Assembly: GCA_021286765.1 (NCBI GenBank)
Contig: JAJTBS010000001.1
Coordinates: 62,001 to 126,000 of the forward strand
Direction: 5' to 3'
Length of the DNA stretch: 64,000 bases
Origin: Holophagaceae bacterium
Lineage (GTDB): Bacteria; Acidobacteriota; Holophagae; Holophagales; Holophagaceae
The position numbers and the translations under genes are program-made. Positions 40,213 to 48,238 of the stretch are shown in pieces (position 1 is the stretch's first letter; each line of letters opens with the position of its first letter). A model generated the notes under the pieces. It did not search any database. It saw nothing but the letters and a program-made list of their open reading frames with translations, and was not told the origin of the DNA.

Positions 40213-43026
40213 TCAGCGCAGTCTACTCGCCTCGGCGGCGAACGCATCCAGGGCGCGGTAGTAGGGATCGATGCTGGGGATGAAGTGGCGCTCGTTGGCC
40301 GCGTGGGGGCCGATGCCCGTCTGGCCCCACACCACGGCCTGCCCACCGGGGGCGAAGCGGGCGGAGGTGCCGGCGCCCTTGCGGCCCAGGCGCACGTCGC
40401 CTCCGGCGGTGGTGATGCCCGCCAGCAGGGCCTTGAGGTAGGGATTCTCGGGATCGCAGGCCACGCCGGGCTCCCAGGCGGAGGGCAGGAACTCCAGCTG
40501 CAGCTCGGCGGCCAGGGCCTCGATCTCCGCCCGCATCTTTGACACATCGTCCTGGGGGATGGCGCGGATCTCTACGCCCAGGGAACCCCGGTCCGGGGTG
40601 ATGTTGTAGATGCCCGGCGTGCCCACCTGGATGTAGGCGAAGCGGGCCAGGGACTGCCAGCCGTCGCTGGACTTGAGCGTCAGGTGCTTCGCGAACAGCT
40701 CGCGCAGGGACTCCCGGGCGCTGAGCAGCCGCTCGGTGAGGTCGCTGCCGCCGGCCAGGCCGCTGTGGCCCCGGGTGCCGTGGGCGATGAGCTCGAAGCG
40801 CAGGACGCCGCGGTTCTGGGTGCAGACCTCGCCCCACAGCTCGGTGCCCTTCTCGCCAGTGCGCTCCCCCGCGATGAAGAAGGAGGGCTCATAGTCCCAC
40901 TCGTCTTTGAGCGCCTTCAGCACGTGGGGCGTGCCCATGGGCTCCAGCTCCCCGTTCTCCTCGTTGCCCACCAGCAGCAGGTTGATGGGCGGATAGGGCG
41001 CGCCCTTCCTGAGCGTGTCCTTCATCCAGACAAGGTAGGTGGAGACCACGGTCTTCATGTCCGCCGCGCCACGGCCATACAGGTAGTCGCCCTGGATCCG
41101 CGGTTCGAACTGGGTGTCGTCCGGCTCGGGCTCCACCACGTCGAAGTGGCCGCATAGCATGGCCGGGGCCTTCTCGCCGCCGGGGAAGTGGGCCAGCACC
41201 GCCGGGAAAGGGCCCTGGTCGAAGGTGCGCACGGGCACGCCGTGATTGCGGAGGTAGTCATGGACGAAGGTGGCGGCGCGGTGCACCTCGGGCAGCCGCT
41301 CCTCGGGGCAGGCCGTGACGCTGGGGATGCGCACCAGGCGCTGGGAGAGGGCGACCACTTCCGTGGTCTTGTCGGGGTAGTCCGCATCCACCAGGTTTTC
41401 AGGCCGGGGCTGGAAGCGGACGGGGGCCTGGGGATCCAGGGTCACCTCGTCGCGGGCATGCTCCACGAAGTCGCGCAGCTTGCCCTCCTCGTCACCGAGG
41501 TCTGCCAGGTGGGCCGTGATGGCCTCCACTTCGTCGCGCACCCGGAGCTTGCGGGATTCCGCCAGCTCCACCAGCAGGTCTGGGGGCACGATGTCCGAGC
41601 TGCCGAGCCGGGCCTTCAGGGTCTGACGGATGCGCTCGGCGGTGCTCGGGGCGCCCGCAGCCAGGTCGCGAAGCGGCTGGAGGTCGTCCCACAGGCCCAG
41701 GGCCTCGGCCAGCGGCCGCATCTGGAGGAGGGTCCAGTCCAGGAAGGCGGACAGGGACACGGGCTTGGCCGTGAGGGGATCCTCCATGACGCCGCGCAGG
41801 CCCTCCTTGGCGGCCAGCTCCTCGTTGCGCCGGGCCCGCTTGATGTCCTCGGCGTCGTAGCGGAAGCCGCGGGCGAAGTCGGGATCCGCATAGAAGCGGA
41901 GCAGCAGCAGGTGCTTCAGCGTGAGGTTGGCGATGTCCAGGGCCAGGTCGTGGCCGGGGTCATCGGTGCGCACCTCCACGCGGGCCATGGGCAGGTCGAT
42001 GCGGGCGAAGAGGTTCTGCCGCTCGATCTGGGCGGCCATGTCCTCCACATTGCGCGTCTGCCCTGCGGCGAAGAGCCCCCGGGCGTAGATGTCGTGCAGC
42101 TGGTCGCTGGTGACCTGGATGAGCCGCTCCACGGGCTCTGCCTGGGAGCGGGCGCGGACCGGGATCCAGTTGTTGTTGCCGAAGCGAACGCCGCTGCGCA
42201 CCAGGTCGTAGGACAGGCGCAGGTAGTCGGGGTGGCTGCGGTTCAGGTCCGGCACGTCCAGGGCCGGCGGGTTCGGGAAGGTGAGGTTCCGCACGGATTC
42301 GTAAGGCGTGAGCCGCACCACGGGCTTGCCGTCCTCCTCCGAAGCCTGGAGGGGCGTGCTGGCGCTGGTGGCGATGAAGAGCGCGGCGAAGGCGCGCATG
42401 AGCCGGGTGCCCGTGATGTAGACCCGGTTCTTGTAGTCATCCAGGTGCGTGTCGCCCCGCTCGCTGGCGGACAAGTGCATGAAGTCCCAGGCCAGCATGG
42501 GCTCGGGCAGGCTCAGGTTGGAGTGGGTGCCGGCCGTGGCCAGCTCGGTGCCGTACATGTCCACGCAGCGCTGCAGGTAGCGGCGCTTGGCCAGGTGCCA
42601 GGACTCGGGCACGCAGTCCGGGCCGATCTTGGGCAGCACGAGGAGGTTGCCGTGCCAGTAGTGGAGCGGCTCCCCGAAGCTGCGGCCGGCCTTGGCCAGG
42701 GCGTTGATGAGGGCGCCCTCCAGCAGGCGGCCTTCGTACACCGCCCCCTTCGGGGTGTGGTAGGGCTTGGTCACCCACTCGATCATCCAGTGGAAGACCT
42801 CCAGCTGGTGGTATTCCTCGGTCCAGGGCGACAGCACCTTCGAGCGCAGGTGGTCCACGAAGGACATGTGATCGGGCCCGGTGCCCACCGTCAGCAGTGG
42901 CCGGAACTGCGGATCCACCAGGTTCCACTCCAGCTCCAGCCCGCAGAGCCCGCCCGAGGGGCGGGTTTCCAGCGCGGTCTGGCGCGCCAGCTGGAACTTC
43001 TCGACGAAGGCGTTCAGGTCGAACAC
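40213..43026 (-). CDS. Glutamate-cysteine-ligase-like / M20 metallopeptidase fusion
   Basis: A single 937-residue frame with two enzyme domains. Residues 1-400 resemble the GCS2 carboxylate-amine ligase family: GLELEWNLVD with the paired Glu, then THSNLSLPEPMLAWD. A helical linker follows (about 400-520). The C-terminal part is an M20/DapE-ArgE type peptidase with CGHFDVVEP (H627, D629), GRGAADMKT, GNEENGE, HGTRGHSG and a final IGPHAANERH. The GTG start shares its G with the aminotransferase TAG stop (TAGTG) and has GGAGG upstream. Both active sites look intact. The fusion and its pairing with proBA are unusual; substrate unknown. Confidence 0.85.
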   Translation of the reverse strand: MFDLNAFVEKFQLARQTALETRPSGGLCGLELEWNLVDPQFRPLLTVGTGPDHMSFVDHLRSKVLSPWTEEYHQLEVFHWMIEWVTKPYHTPKGAVYEGRLLEGALINALAKAGRSFGEPLHYWHGNLLVLPKIGPDCVPESWHLAKRRYLQRCVDMYGTELATAGTHSNLSLPEPMLAWDFMHLSASERGDTHLDDYKNRVYITGTRLMRAFAALFIATSASTPLQASEEDGKPVVRLTPYESVRNLTFPNPPALDVPDLNRSHPDYLRLSYDLVRSGVRFGNNNWIPVRARSQAEPVERLIQVTSDQLHDIYARGLFAAGQTRNVEDMAAQIERQNLFARIDLPMARVEVRTDDPGHDLALDIANLTLKHLLLLRFYADPDFARGFRYDAEDIKRARRNEELAAKEGLRGVMEDPLTAKPVSLSAFLDWTLLQMRPLAEALGLWDDLQPLRDLAAGAPSTAERIRQTLKARLGSSDIVPPDLLVELAESRKLRVRDEVEAITAHLADLGDEEGKLRDFVEHARDEVTLDPQAPVRFQPRPENLVDADYPDKTTEVVALSQRLVRIPSVTACPEERLPEVHRAATFVHDYLRNHGVPVRTFDQGPFPAVLAHFPGGEKAPAMLCGHFDVVEPEPDDTQFEPRIQGDYLYGRGAADMKTVVSTYLVWMKDTLRKGAPYPPINLLLVGNEENGELEPMGTPHVLKALKDEWDYEPSFFIAGERTGEKGTELWGEVCTQNRGVLRFELIAHGTRGHSGLAGGSDLTERLLSARESLRELFAKHLTLKSSDGWQSLARFAYIQVGTPGIYNITPDRGSLGVEIRAIPQDDVSKMRAEIEALAAELQLEFLPSAWEPGVACDPENPYLKALLAGITTAGGDVRLGRKGAGTSARFAPGGQAVVWGQTGIGPHAANERHFIPSIDPYYRALDAFAAEASRLR

Positions 43027-44336
43027 TAGGCCTCCAGGCCCTTGAGGGCTTCGAGCAGTCGCTGGGCGGCGCCCTGGGTGCGCTCCACGGGCGTGGCGTA
43101 GGAGAAGCGGATCCACTCGCCGCCGTAGGGGCTGAAGAAGGCGCCGGGCACCACCGCCACGCCGTGATTCTCCGCGAAGTGCTGACCCAGGGGCTCGCTG
43201 TCCGCCCAGCCCTTGGCCTTCAGGCCCGCGGCCACGTGGATGAAGGCGTAGTAGCCCTGGCCAATGATGTGCGTGAGGCCCTGGGCCTTCAGGAAGTCGC
43301 GCAGCCAGGCGCGGCTGGCGCGGCAGGGGCCGGCGATGGGCGCGCTGGCGGCCTGGAAGCCCTGCTCGTAGGCGGCCATGGCCACCGCGAGGCTGAAGAA
43401 GGAGGGGATCACCGTGTGGGAGGCCTGGGCCACGATGGTCTTGACCACCTCGGCGTCCGCCAGCAGGTGGCAGTTGCGGATGTTGGACCCACCCAGGCTC
43501 TTGGTGATGCCATCCAGCACCATGAGGCGCTTGCGCAGCTCCGGCTTGAAGGCCCGCAGCAGCGCGTTCACGTCGTAGGGTTCGCCGTCGCCTACCGCGT
43601 GGTACATCCAGTCGAAGAGCACGAAGGCCACGCCCGCCTCCAGCGCGGCGCGGGCCAGGGCGATCTGGCGCTCCAGGGTGAGGGTCTGCCCCGTGGGGTT
43701 GTCCGGGCTGGTGATGACCAGGCCTGCCACCTTGCGGCCGTGCTTCGCAGCTTCAGCCACGCAGGCGCGGATGCCATCCTCCGAGTACGCCCAGCCTTCT
43801 TCGGCGCGCCCGGGGGCCCACATCACGTTGGCGCCGATGCCATAGGGGCCCCAGTTGTAGCTGATCCAGGGCACGCGGCTCACCACCACGACGTCGCCCT
43901 GGCGGCCATGGCCCAGCGCCATCATCGCGCCGTAGGCCTTCTGCAGGCCGTCGCGGCCGCCCTGGGTGCCGATGACGTTGGCGGTGCCCCAGCCCGTGTC
44001 CGGCGCCAGCTTCCAGTAGCTCTCGGCCACCGCCTTGCGGTAGGCCTCGGTGCCGAAGGGCATGTCGTAGGCGGTGCCGTGCTGCTTCTGCAGCTCGAAG
44101 GCGCGGTCCAGCAGGGCCTCCGGCACGCCCGGAAGGGAGGCGCCACCATCGCCCTGGCTGGCGTCGAAGATGGGCACGCCGGGCTGCTTCTCCTGGAAGA
44201 CCTTCAGCGACTTGTTGATGAGGAACATGCGGGAGGCCGGGATGGCCATCATCTTCCCCAGGTGGTCGCTCACCGGAACGAGGTTCGCCTCGGGCACGGC
44301 AAAGGCGGGCGTTTCAGGAGAGAGAAGGGCTGCCAC
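43026..44336 (-). CDS. Class I/II PLP-dependent aminotransferase
   Basis: A 436-residue fold-type I aminotransferase. The PLP lysine is in LDGITKSLGGSN, the SPDNPTGQTL motif matches the Asn-Pro-Thr-Gly of class I/II, and the terminal RFSYATP arginine binds the substrate carboxylate. It is not a class III (ornithine-type) enzyme. GTG 44336 is chosen because GGGAGGT lies 3 nt upstream; a GTG at 44417 has no such site. It lies 123 nt after proA and overlaps the ligase/M20 gene by one base. Confidence 0.9.
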   Translation of the reverse strand: MAALLSPETPAFAVPEANLVPVSDHLGKMMAIPASRMFLINKSLKVFQEKQPGVPIFDASQGDGGASLPGVPEALLDRAFELQKQHGTAYDMPFGTEAYRKAVAESYWKLAPDTGWGTANVIGTQGGRDGLQKAYGAMMALGHGRQGDVVVVSRVPWISYNWGPYGIGANVMWAPGRAEEGWAYSEDGIRACVAEAAKHGRKVAGLVITSPDNPTGQTLTLERQIALARAALEAGVAFVLFDWMYHAVGDGEPYDVNALLRAFKPELRKRLMVLDGITKSLGGSNIRNCHLLADAEVVKTIVAQASHTVIPSFFSLAVAMAAYEQGFQAASAPIAGPCRASRAWLRDFLKAQGLTHIIGQGYYAFIHVAAGLKAKGWADSEPLGQHFAENHGVAVVPGAFFSPYGGEWIRFSYATPVERTQGAAQRLLEALKGLEA

Positions 44337-44459: not shown

Positions 44460-45776
44460 TTATTCATCCAGCGGCAGATCACGGTGCCGGAAGGGCTTCG
44501 TTGAAGGGCCCGAGTAGTCCTCGACCCGCTGCCCGGAGCCCCGGAGCAGATAGCGGTAGCTCAGCAGGCCTTCGAGCCCCACCGGTCCCCGGGCGTGGAT
44601 GCGCCCGGTGCTGATGCCCACCTCGGCCCCGAAACCGTACCGGAAGCCATCGGCGAAGCGCGTCGAAGCATTGTGGAAGACGCCGGCGGCGTCCACCTCG
44701 GCCAGGAAACGGGCGGCGGCGGCGGCATCGTCGGTGATGATGGCCTCGGTGTGGCCGCTGCCATGGGCGCGGATGTGGGCCAGCGCCGCATCGAGATCCT
44801 CGACGACCCTCAGGGCCAGGATCGGCACCCCGTACTCGGCGTCCCAGTCGGCCTCGGTGGCGGCCAGGAGGGCGGGCGCGAGCTCGCAGCAGCTTGGACA
44901 GCCGCGCAGCTCCACGCCCCGGGGCAGGAGGTCCGCCACCAGCGCGGGCAGCAGCCGGGCCGCCGCCCCGCGATGGATCAGCACGGTCTCGATGGCGTTG
45001 CAGGCGGAGGGGTACTGGAGCTTGGCATCCCGCACCAGGGCCACGGCCATGGCGGTATCCGCGGCCTCGTCGAGGACCATGTGGCACACCCCGTCGGCAT
45101 GACCCAGCACGGGAATGCGGGTGGCGGCCTGCAGGCTCAGGACCAGCTCCCGGGAGCCGCGGGGGATGACCAGGTCCACCAGGTCGGGACGCTGCAGGAG
45201 CGCCGCCACCGCCGCCCGGTCCGGCAGGCCCTGCACGGCGGCTTCGGGGAGGCCCGCGGCCCCCAGGGCGGTCTGCACCGCGGTGAGTAGGGCCGCGTTG
45301 GAGTGGCGGGCCTCGCTGCCGCCCTTGAGCAGCACGGCATTGCCGCTCTTCAGGGCCAGGGCGCTGATCTGGATGAGGGCATCGGGCCGCGATTCGAAGA
45401 CCACGCACAGCACGCCCAGGGGACAGCTCACCCGGGTGAGCTCCAGGCCCGCGTCGAGTTCACGCCGCAGAGAGACCTGGTGGAGGGGATCCCGGAGGTC
45501 CGCCACCGCCCTGACGCCCATGGCCATGGCGTCGAGCTTGGCGGCGTCCAGCTTCAGGCGCTCCAGAGCCGAGGCGTCAATGACGCCTGTGGCGGCGCGC
45601 ACATCCTGCGCATTGGCCGCGAGGATGGCGGATCCTTGCCGTTCCAGCTCGGCTGCCAACCGCAGGAGTACGTCTGAACGGGGCTCGGCGGGCGTCGTCG
45701 CCAGGCGGCGCGAGGCCTCTCGGGCGGCCTGAGCCATGAGGTGGATGGGATTGGAATTTGGGCTCGCCGTGGTCAT
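44460..45776 (-). CDS. proA: Gamma-glutamyl phosphate reductase
   Basis: ProA (438 aa) reduces gamma-glutamyl phosphate to glutamate semialdehyde, the second step of proline synthesis. Motifs include CPLGVLCVVFESRPDALIQISALALKSGNA, LVIPRGSRELV, the catalytic cysteine in YPSACNAIETVLIH and HNASTRFADGFRYGFGAEVGISTGRIHARGPVGLEGL. ATG overlaps the proB stop by four bases (ATGA), so the pair is coupled. Confidence 0.97.
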   Translation of the reverse strand: MTTASPNSNPIHLMAQAAREASRRLATTPAEPRSDVLLRLAAELERQGSAILAANAQDVRAATGVIDASALERLKLDAAKLDAMAMGVRAVADLRDPLHQVSLRRELDAGLELTRVSCPLGVLCVVFESRPDALIQISALALKSGNAVLLKGGSEARHSNAALLTAVQTALGAAGLPEAAVQGLPDRAAVAALLQRPDLVDLVIPRGSRELVLSLQAATRIPVLGHADGVCHMVLDEAADTAMAVALVRDAKLQYPSACNAIETVLIHRGAAARLLPALVADLLPRGVELRGCPSCCELAPALLAATEADWDAEYGVPILALRVVEDLDAALAHIRAHGSGHTEAIITDDAAAAARFLAEVDAAGVFHNASTRFADGFRYGFGAEVGISTGRIHARGPVGLEGLLSYRYLLRGSGQRVEDYSGPSTKPFRHRDLPLDE

Positions 45777-46636
45777 GACCGGCCTCCCCTGGGCGCGGCG
45801 AGGAAGAGGGTCCCCACGGATTCGCCGGAGAGGATCCGGGCCAAGATGAGGTGGGCGAGTCCCGATGCCAGCACCACGGGCACGCCCGACCGCGCAGCGG
45901 CGCGGGCCGCCTCCACCTTGCTGACCATGCCGCCCCGGCCGCGATCCGAGCTGCCCTCCAGGTTGGCCTGCAGGTCGGCGCCGAAGGGAACCTCGGTGAG
46001 GGGCGTGGCCCCGGGATCGAGGCCGGGGTTGGCGGTGTGCAGGGCCGTCACGTCCGACAGCAGGATCAGCAGATCCGCCTCCAGGTGCGTGGCCACCAGG
46101 GCCGACAGGTGGTCATTGTCGCTGAAGATGGGCGTGTGGCCAGGATCCGGGCGTTCCAGCTCCAGGGTGGAGACCGTGTCGTTCTCATTGAGCACGGGGA
46201 TGGCGCCCAGGTCCAGCAGGGTCTCCAGGGTTCGCCGCAGGTTGGCGTGACGGACGGGATCAGCGAAATCATCTTCGGTAAGCAGGACTTGGGCCGCGCA
46301 GAGCCCCATGCGGGCGAAACCCTCCTGGTAGATGGACATGAGCTGGCCCTGGCCGGCGGCGGCGCAGGCCTGCTTCTGGGACAGGCTCTCCGGTTTGATC
46401 CCCAGCTGCCGGGCTCCGAGCCCCACGGCACCGGAGGACACCAGCAGGGGTTGGGCGCCCCGGCGGCGCAGCTCCGCCACGGTCTCCATGAGTCCATAGA
46501 GGCGGCTGAGGGCCGGGCGGCCCTCGGCATCCAGCACCACCTGGGTACCGAGCTTCAGCACAATCCTTCGCGCGTGGGTGAGCCCGCTGCGCTGGAGGTT
46601 TTCCCGGGTGGCCTTCGTAGGCTGGCTCATGGGCAT
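45773..46636 (-). CDS. proB: Glutamate 5-kinase lacking the PUA domain
   Basis: ProB (287 aa) phosphorylates glutamate. Amino acid kinase motifs: VLKLGTQV near residue 27, VSSGAVGLG (66-74), NENDTVS and SDNDHLSALVA, then GGMVSKVEAA. The C-terminal PUA domain of the 367-residue E. coli enzyme is missing, as in several lineages. The start (46636, with ATG again at 46630) sits 11 nt after the terminator-like poly-T of an attenuator-like leader. ATG overlap ties it to proA. Confidence 0.93.
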   Translation of the reverse strand: MPMSQPTKATRENLQRSGLTHARRIVLKLGTQVVLDAEGRPALSRLYGLMETVAELRRRGAQPLLVSSGAVGLGARQLGIKPESLSQKQACAAAGQGQLMSIYQEGFARMGLCAAQVLLTEDDFADPVRHANLRRTLETLLDLGAIPVLNENDTVSTLELERPDPGHTPIFSDNDHLSALVATHLEADLLILLSDVTALHTANPGLDPGATPLTEVPFGADLQANLEGSSDRGRGGMVSKVEAARAAARSGVPVVLASGLAHLILARILSGESVGTLFLAAPRGGRS

Positions 46637-46646
46637 CTGCCTAAAG

Positions 46647-46675
46647 AAAAACCCCCGATCGCGAGGGGTCGGGGG
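46647..46675 (-). terminator. Attenuator-type terminator upstream of proB
   Basis: In minus-strand RNA CCCCCGA (46675-46669) pairs with TCGGGGG (46658-46652), followed by TTTTT (46651-46647). It stands between a Pro-rich leader ORF and proB on the same strand, so it can only regulate proB or end upstream read-through. Confidence 0.8.
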
Positions 46676-46725
46676 CGGGAGGGCGGGAAGTCCTGAAGTG
46701 GGTTCAGACCCGCAATCCCCCGGCC
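46667..46725 (-). promoter_or_regulatory. Potential antiterminator pairing
   Basis: GGCCGGGGG in minus-strand RNA (46725-46717), overlapping the last codons of the leader, can pair with CCCCCGACC (46675-46667) with one mismatch, using the 5' arm of the terminator. The two structures exclude each other. Confidence 0.6.
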
Positions 46726-46775
46726 GCCGGAAGGGCGGGGCAGGGGTTCGGGTTGTGGGTCATGACAGGCATCAT
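46704..46775 (-). CDS. Proline-rich leader peptide of proBA
   Basis: A 23-codon ORF starting ATGATG and ending TGA, 68 nt before proB. It contains five proline codons of 23, four of them within the segment PNPCPALP (codons 9-16), using CCT, CCG and CCC. The stop is followed by a small hairpin (CTGAA-CCCAC-TTCAG) and then the terminator. This is the arrangement of amino-acid biosynthetic attenuators, in which ribosome pausing at codons for the end product decides between antiterminator and terminator. The ribosome binding site is weak, so translation may be leaderless or from a short 5' end. The role is inference from layout. Confidence 0.6.
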   Translation of the reverse strand: MMPVMTHNPNPCPALPAAGGLRV

Positions 46776-46828
46776 GGTGCGCCAAGTGTGACGAGGCGGG
46801 GCGGGGGATGCAACGGGAAAGCCCTGGA

Positions 46829-48238
46829 TCAAACCGCCGCCTCGCGCAGGGCCTCCCAGAGCGCTTCCACATGGCGCCGCGTGGTGGCTTCGGCGCCGAT
46901 GCTGACCCGCAGCATCTGACGGCCCTTCAGCATGGACGGCGTGAGGTAGGCCTTGCCGCTGTCGTTCACCCGGCGGGCAAGCTCCAGGTTGTGGGCGGCG
47001 AGGGCGGTTTCGTCGAGGCTCGGCTTGAGGTGGCGGAGGCACACCGTCTGCAGGGGCACCGGGGCCAGGCGCTCCCAGTCCGGCGTGGCGTCCACCTGCG
47101 TTTTCAGCCACTGGGCGTGTTCCAGATCCCGCCGCAGGCGGGTCTGCAGGCCCTCCACGCCCACGTCCATGAGGTAGAACCACAGTTTGAGGGCCCGGAA
47201 GCGTCGGCCCAGCTGGATGTGCCAGTCGCGGAAGTTGCTCACTTGGCCGTCCTGGGCCGTGCGCAGGTAGCTGGGGTTGGTGCTCATCACGCGGATGAGG
47301 TGCTGGGGATCGCGCACGTAGTAGGCGCTGAGGTCGAAGCCCACGCCCATCCATTTGTGGGGGTTGAAGACCAGGCTGTCGGCCCGCTCCACGCCCGCCC
47401 ACATCCAGCGGCATTCGGGCAGCACCATGGCCGTGCCGGCCAGGGCCGCGTCCACGTGGAGCCACAGGCCATGCTTCTCCGCCAGGTCCGCCATGGCTGC
47501 CACCGGATCGAGTGCCGTGGTGCCCGTGGTGCCGACCGCCGCGACGAGCGCACAGGGGCGCAGGCCGATGTTGAGATCCTTTTCAATGGCCTCTTCCAGG
47601 AGGTCGAGGCGGATGGCATGGTCCTCGTCCGTCGGGATGAGCCGCAGGAAGCTGCGCCCGAAGCCCGCCAGCAGCGCGGCCTTCTCGATGGAGCTGTGCC
47701 CCTGGTCGCTGGCGTAGACCACGAGGGGCGCCTCGCCGCCTTGGAGGCCCTCCGTGTTCTGCGAGTATTCCGAGGCCTTCTCACGGGCGCAGAGCAGGGC
47801 CGTGAAGGTGGCGGTGCTGGCGGTGTCGTGGATGACGCCGGTGAAGGCCGGGCTCAGTCCCACCATCTGGCGCAGCCAGTCCATGACCACCTCTTCGACT
47901 TCGGTGGCGGCGGGGCTGGTCTGCCAGCTCATGCCCTGGGCGCCGAGGCCGGAGGCGGCCAGATCGCCGAGGATGGAGCTGTAGCTCGTGTTGCTGGGGA
48001 AGTAGGCGAAGAAGGATGGGTGGTTCCAATGGGTGATGCCGGGCATCACATCCCGCTCCAGGGCGGCCAGGGCCGCATCCATGCGCCCGCCGTGCTGGGG
48101 CGGGTGGTCCGGGAAGGCGGCCCGGATCTCGCCGGGCTTCACCTGGCTCATGACCGGCAGGCGCTCCAGACCTTCGCGGTAGTCCGCGATCCAATCCACG
48201 AGCTGGTAACCGAGGCGGCGGAATTCTTGGGCGTCCAT
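46829..48238 (-). CDS. Group II PLP-dependent decarboxylase (aromatic-L-amino-acid type)
   Basis: A 469-residue decarboxylase of the DDC/tyrosine-tryptophan group. It has THWNHPSFFAYFPSN near residue 70, the HSSIEKAALLAG helix with the PLP-stacking His, VGTTGTTALDP, the HVDAALAG strand with the Asp that contacts the pyridine nitrogen, and the PLP lysine in NPHKWMGVGFD. It releases CO2 from an aromatic amino acid; which one cannot be read. It ends about 50 nt before the proline leader and may or may not share its transcript. Confidence 0.92.
   Translation of the reverse strand: MDAQEFRRLGYQLVDWIADYREGLERLPVMSQVKPGEIRAAFPDHPPQHGGRMDAALAALERDVMPGITHWNHPSFFAYFPSNTSYSSILGDLAASGLGAQGMSWQTSPAATEVEEVVMDWLRQMVGLSPAFTGVIHDTASTATFTALLCAREKASEYSQNTEGLQGGEAPLVVYASDQGHSSIEKAALLAGFGRSFLRLIPTDEDHAIRLDLLEEAIEKDLNIGLRPCALVAAVGTTGTTALDPVAAMADLAEKHGLWLHVDAALAGTAMVLPECRWMWAGVERADSLVFNPHKWMGVGFDLSAYYVRDPQHLIRVMSTNPSYLRTAQDGQVSNFRDWHIQLGRRFRALKLWFYLMDVGVEGLQTRLRRDLEHAQWLKTQVDATPDWERLAPVPLQTVCLRHLKPSLDETALAAHNLELARRVNDSGKAYLTPSMLKGRQMLRVSIGAEATTRRHVEALWEALREAAV

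Follow-up and report, generated by a model that had tools for sequence, protein, structure and literature searches.

A candidate proline-sensing leader-peptide attenuator before proBA in Geothrix and its relatives before other amino acid genes of Holophagaceae

In Firmicutes, proline genes are under T-box control, in which the charging of tRNA-Pro is sensed and proline synthesis is regulated by termination. A T-box binds uncharged tRNA directly and without a leader peptide, unlike the proB leader described here, and the window (the whole stretch of 64,000 nucleotides that was analysed) contains no Rfam T-box match. Classical ribosome-mediated attenuators are those of trp, his, leu, thr, ilv and pheA, and proline and asparagine are not mentioned in the same paper (PMC1183508). 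In both the classical attenuators and the Geothrix element, a short leader ORF contains codons for the product of the pathway, antiterminator and terminator are alternative structures, and the terminator lies immediately ahead of the first gene. The Geothrix element differs from them in its predicted sensing of proline (asparagine in sister leaders), in the genes it would control (proB and proC), in its phylum, Acidobacteriota, and in its predicted near-leaderless start. In Salmonella, the Pro-codon leaders mgtL and mgtP of mgtA and mgtCBR have been studied experimentally (PMC3641672). These are also leader ORFs rich in Pro codons, and the operon responds to proline limitation via the Pro codons, as was shown by mutation for mgtP (PMC3641672). 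However, they control Mg2+ transport and virulence genes instead of proline synthesis and have no apparent sequence relationship with the Geothrix leader, and mgtP, unlike the latter, has a Shine-Dalgarno-like site (PMC3641672). In Sinorhizobium meliloti, trpL is a leader ORF at the 5' end of the transcript that is translated leaderless and acts by transcription attenuation (PMC7298713), and a leaderless start is likewise predicted in Geothrix, but trpL has tryptophan codons, precedes trpE(G) and belongs to the Alphaproteobacteria. Every mechanistic step proposed below has a precedent, and the novelty lies in the pathway, the phylum and the set. The open-access literature yielded no paper on a leader-peptide attenuator of proBA or proC and none on leader peptides of Acidobacteria or leaderless transcripts of Geothrix, although absence there is not proof of novelty.

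The leader ORF and its proline codons

Contigs of relatives match named Geothrix loci, which places the host genome of the window in Geothrix or very close to this genus. The following features lie on the minus strand.

44460-45776, minus strand: proA, glutamate-5-semialdehyde dehydrogenase (NCBIfam TIGR00407/NF001221)
45773-46630, minus strand: proB, glutamate 5-kinase without PUA domain (NCBIfam TIGR01027, above cut-off)
46704-46775, minus strand: leader ORF, from ATG at 46775 to TGA at 46704, 23 codons plus stop
46743-46751, minus strand: putative sensor codons Pro9 (CCG, 46751-46749) and Pro11 (CCC, 46745-46743), conserved in 24 and 25 of 25 loci, respectively
46728-46739, minus strand: Pro codon 13 (46739-46737) and Pro codon 16 (46730-46728), neither of them strictly conserved

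By their coordinates, proB and proA overlap by 4 nt and form a proBA operon. Judged from relatives, the most likely start of proB is the ATG at 46630; the ATG at 46636 is also possible. A sequence-only reading of this DNA had noted that ProB lacks a PUA domain, and Pfam indeed shows AA_kinase alone; the argument made there, that transcriptional control would stand in for the missing domain, is not needed for the interpretation given below. The leader ORF, a hairpin and a T-tract are situated between proBA and a PLP-dependent decarboxylase gene of the same strand, the end of which is at 46829.

The leader encodes MMPVMTHNPNPCPALPAAGGLRV, with Pro at codons 3, 9, 11, 13 and 16. Relatives were collected from 21 further genomes of the same genus and from named Geothrix loci, giving 25 distinct leader sequences. 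The 23-codon ORF with five Pro codons of the sequence-only reading was confirmed by translation, and an orthologous ORF of 22-23 codons was found intact, with codon-phased conservation, in 25/25 loci. The count of Pro codons in the window leader alone is unremarkable, with at least five Pro in 32% of shuffled sequences, but codons 9 and 11 are conserved in the relatives. Pro9 is kept in 24 of the 25 distinct loci, the single exception having Gln (L003), and Pro11 in all of them. Sequence pairs with synonymous and nonsynonymous differences numbered 95 and 24 at Pro9 and 114 and 0 at Pro11, and in all other codon columns nonsynonymous pairs outnumbered synonymous pairs. Pro11 is CCT in 19 of the 25 loci; the share of CCT among Pro codons of window genes is 7%. 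Apart from codon 9 in L003, the whole element (ORF, start spacing, Pro codons 9 and 11 and terminator) was present at every locus, and no homologue had kept the terminator but lost the ORF. The case for the leader beyond chance therefore rests on the comparison, because the single-sequence tests, namely Pro count and antiterminator energy, are not decisive.

The hairpin might be the ordinary terminator of the decarboxylase gene and the ORF a chance C-rich frame. The decarboxylase gene is on the same strand, the interval up to proB showed no second terminator, and the number of Pro codons alone would fit a chance ORF. However, the whole element is kept in 11 of the 25 loci in which no decarboxylase lies within 1300 nt upstream, and it therefore belongs to proB and not to the decarboxylase. 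The terminator also abuts proB in all loci, and both the codon-level conservation and the cognate codons in the sister leaders described below argue against a chance ORF. This explanation is largely refuted, and we regard it as highly improbable.

Two hexamers upstream of the leader ORF suggest where transcription begins.

46808-46813, minus strand: -35-like hexamer TTGCAT, 17 nt before the -10-like hexamer, with TTG at the same place in most of the 25 loci
46785-46790, minus strand: -10-like hexamer CACACT, separated from the leader ATG by exactly 9 nt, with a predicted transcription start at about A46778

The C, A, A and T positions of the -10-like hexamer are invariant in 25/25 loci, its 9-nt spacing to the start codon is equally fixed, and TTG usually lies about 17-18 nt upstream of it. 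A consensus promoter scan of the window called no promoter, and both hexamers match the sigma-70 consensus poorly; the promoter and the leaderless start are probable from conservation. If this hexamer is the -10 element, its place 9 nt before the start codon leaves no room for a Shine-Dalgarno site, and translation of the leader is then probably leaderless. The weak ribosome site of the leader, the main doubt of the sequence-only reading, fits this predicted start. The pattern CACACT-N9-ATG occurs in only two places in the genome and is thus not a general promoter signature.

Terminator and alternative folds

A terminator scan and folding defined three features from the last part of the leader ORF to proB.

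46643-46675, minus strand: intrinsic terminator, consisting of a stem-loop (46675-46652) and a T-tract (46651-46643)
about 46717-46730, minus strand: region 2, the end of the leader ORF, pairing upstream (1:2) when untranslated or with region 3 if a ribosome stalls
about 46670-46683, minus strand: region 3, including the 5' arm of the terminator, pairing with region 2 in the antiterminator

In the window the T-tract after the GC hairpin is TTTTTCTTT, directly before proB. The GC stem and T run pointed out from the sequence thus stand as a terminator, which adjoins proB in all 25 loci with its stem conserved in each and one pair changed on both sides.

Both alternative structures were folded. 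In the stalled state of the window leader, pairing between the ORF end and the 5' arm of the terminator has an energy of -31.7 kcal/mol, versus -12.7 kcal/mol for the terminator alone. In the untranslated state the ORF end pairs upstream and the terminator forms. Compared with shuffles, the antiterminator energy of the window has a z-score of -1.7, which is within the range of C-rich shuffles. Long antiterminator helices that use up the terminator arm were also folded for two other proB leaders (L017 and L021). Before proC, the antiterminator helix GCGGGGGGGA/UCCCCCCCGC excludes the proC terminator, and before asnB the terminator arm is shared by a long alternative helix.

The proB terminators are of two types, CCCCCGAC or CCCCCGAU versus CCCCCGG, and each type goes with matching region-2 sequences. 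Swapping region 2 between the two proB clades costs a mean of 1.27 kcal/mol (null -0.08, sd 0.72), a value reached in 4 of 100 cases. A test of native against cross duplexes, which is cruder than the swap, was positive for proB (408/594) but not for proC (123/270), though the proC helices are long, and was near neutral for pheA and DAHP synthase. Covariation support for the antiterminator is modest. The mutually exclusive pairing of leader end and terminator arm put forward earlier was therefore upheld in part: it formed in the folds of the window and of proC, but covariation is modest and the window z-score is only -1.7. Even when the stalled state is folded thermodynamically, the terminator wins in several species of clade B, so switching in these species would have to be kinetic.

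RNAalifold on the full proB leader alignment recovered the terminator alone and no other conserved structure. We take the divergence of the antiterminator pairing between clades to be the reason for this. The same result bears on the possibility that a riboswitch, a T-box or a protein-bound RNA is at work and the ORF is incidental. An alternative fold does exist, and in Firmicutes proline genes are known to be under T-box control. However, the alignment contains no conserved structure except the terminator, and the sequence is conserved in phase with the codons, with synonymous changes at third positions. An Rfam scan of the window at gathering and permissive thresholds gave nothing meaningful: no family reached gathering scores, covariance-model matches to T-boxes or riboswitches were absent, and the weak matches to the element all had E above 1. 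Of the explanations considered here, an RNA of this kind is the least probable, and we give it almost no weight.

The locus thus has a leader ORF, conserved cognate codons, a terminator between the ORF and proB, and an antiterminator that shares sequence with the part of the ORF end that a ribosome would cover. The element is very probably a ribosome-mediated transcription attenuator before proBA that reads the supply of proline-tRNA; we infer translation, stalling, termination and the response to proline. Transcription would begin 0-3 nt before the leader AUG, and the first ribosome would load on a leaderless, or nearly leaderless, message. When Pro-tRNA is ample, the ribosome would reach the stop codon and cover region 2, and the terminator (3:4) would end transcription before proB. 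If Pro-tRNA becomes scarce, the ribosome would stall at Pro codons 9-11, or as far on as 16, and leave region 2 free to pair with region 3, which holds the 5' arm of the terminator, and RNA polymerase would read into proBA. If the leader is not translated, region 2 would pair upstream (1:2) and the terminator would form. The proline genes would then probably be switched on only if proline is lacking at the ribosomes.

Leaders of other amino acid genes

A covariance model built from the 25 proB leaders gave weaker matches in most Geothrix genomes, and these were read out with their downstream genes, whose identities were called on examples. Most of the matches are leaders of other amino acid genes. 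Leaders with the same architecture were matched before proC, pheA, asnB and DAHP synthase genes. Pro-codon leaders before proC (among them L116, L121, L131, L108-L113, L226 and L227) are kept also in genomes that yielded no proB. The 17 found in Geothrix all have PRPS at codons 9-12 or, in one case, 10-13, which puts Pro at codons 9 and 11 or, in that case, 10 and 12. Leaders of pheA (n=29, including L115, L122 and L132) have Phe codons, for example RAFFFSFRT or FFFSF. Leaders of asnB (n=26, including L118, L123-L126 and L130) have Asn codons, for example NRNTNR, with terminators before the asparagine synthetase genes. Those of DAHP synthase (n=8, including L120 and L128) have Trp, Tyr and Phe codons, for example RYYWFP. 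Leaders of trpE with WWW or WRW (L136-L138) were found directly, as was one ilvB with a Val/Ile/Leu leader (L143); for leuA and hisG of Geothrix, no such leader was found directly upstream. Sister genera have leaders with HHHHAH before hisG (L225, L228), with NNRNNAN and terminators before asnA or asnA-like genes (L216, L218), with FFYYFGFR before a class-II DAHP synthase gene and with IAIIT before a gene for an ilvA-like PLP enzyme (L232). In the sister genus g21, proC has a Pro-rich leader (APSPCPLPR) of unrelated sequence, MTFHLAPSPCPLPR. As translated, the codons of each sister leader match the product of the downstream gene.

Because its training set consisted of proB leaders, the model could favour Pro codons in the proC matches. 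This objection applies much less to the proC leader of g21 and to the leaders with Phe, Asn, Trp/Tyr and His codons. Residue enrichment against the other leader families picks Asn for asnB, Phe for pheA and Tyr/Trp for DAHP synthase, but not Pro for proB or proC, because Pro is common to all these C-rich leaders. The case for Pro is supported by the synonymous changes at Pro9 and Pro11 in the codon-column test and not by residue enrichment.

These leaders also bear on what would stall the ribosome. In nascent-chain arrest, the Pro-x-Pro peptide itself would do so in a polyproline- or EF-P-dependent manner, and the leader would sense EF-P activity or general translation stress and not the supply of proline. 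Some leaders do contain Pro-Pro-Pro (L008-L011, L014), and consecutive prolines slow peptide bond formation according to passages in PMC8129111 and PMC4890201. However, most of the leaders have isolated Pro codons with varying residues between them, and the sister leaders carry Phe, Asn, His and Trp codons that match their pathways, which points to tRNA charging as the shared principle. Nascent-chain arrest is therefore very unlikely. The attenuation logic for proline proposed in the sequence-only reading is supported by the 25/25 proB loci, by the separate Pro leaders of proC and by the cognate codons of the sister leaders.

Our data suggest, with good though not full confidence, that leader-peptide attenuators with short 5' ends form a family-wide set in Holophagaceae, with one for each amino acid pathway. 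The set would include the sensing of proline (proB, proC) and of asparagine (asnB, asnA), for which the open-access literature gave no report in ribosome-mediated attenuation of biosynthesis. Such a set predicts the regulation of about a dozen genes, both in Geothrix species that can be cultured and in related bacteria. As a natural series with one architecture and different sensed codons, the leaders may help to show how the specificity of an attenuator changes and how it can act when no Shine-Dalgarno site is present.

Membership of the proB leader in such a set had not been recognised in the sequence-only reading. Many long antisense open frames occur in the GC-rich sequence of the window, for example at 41188-43029 on the plus strand, and most are probably spurious. 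Several nearly complete Geothrix genomes (G001, G002, G009, G018 and G032) have no proper proB match. In L017, AA_kinase and Aldedh domains are in one frame, and ProB and ProA are apparently fused in some Geothrix species, as in P5C synthase; long open frames of 469-818 aa were found in L019-L022 alongside this apparent fusion.
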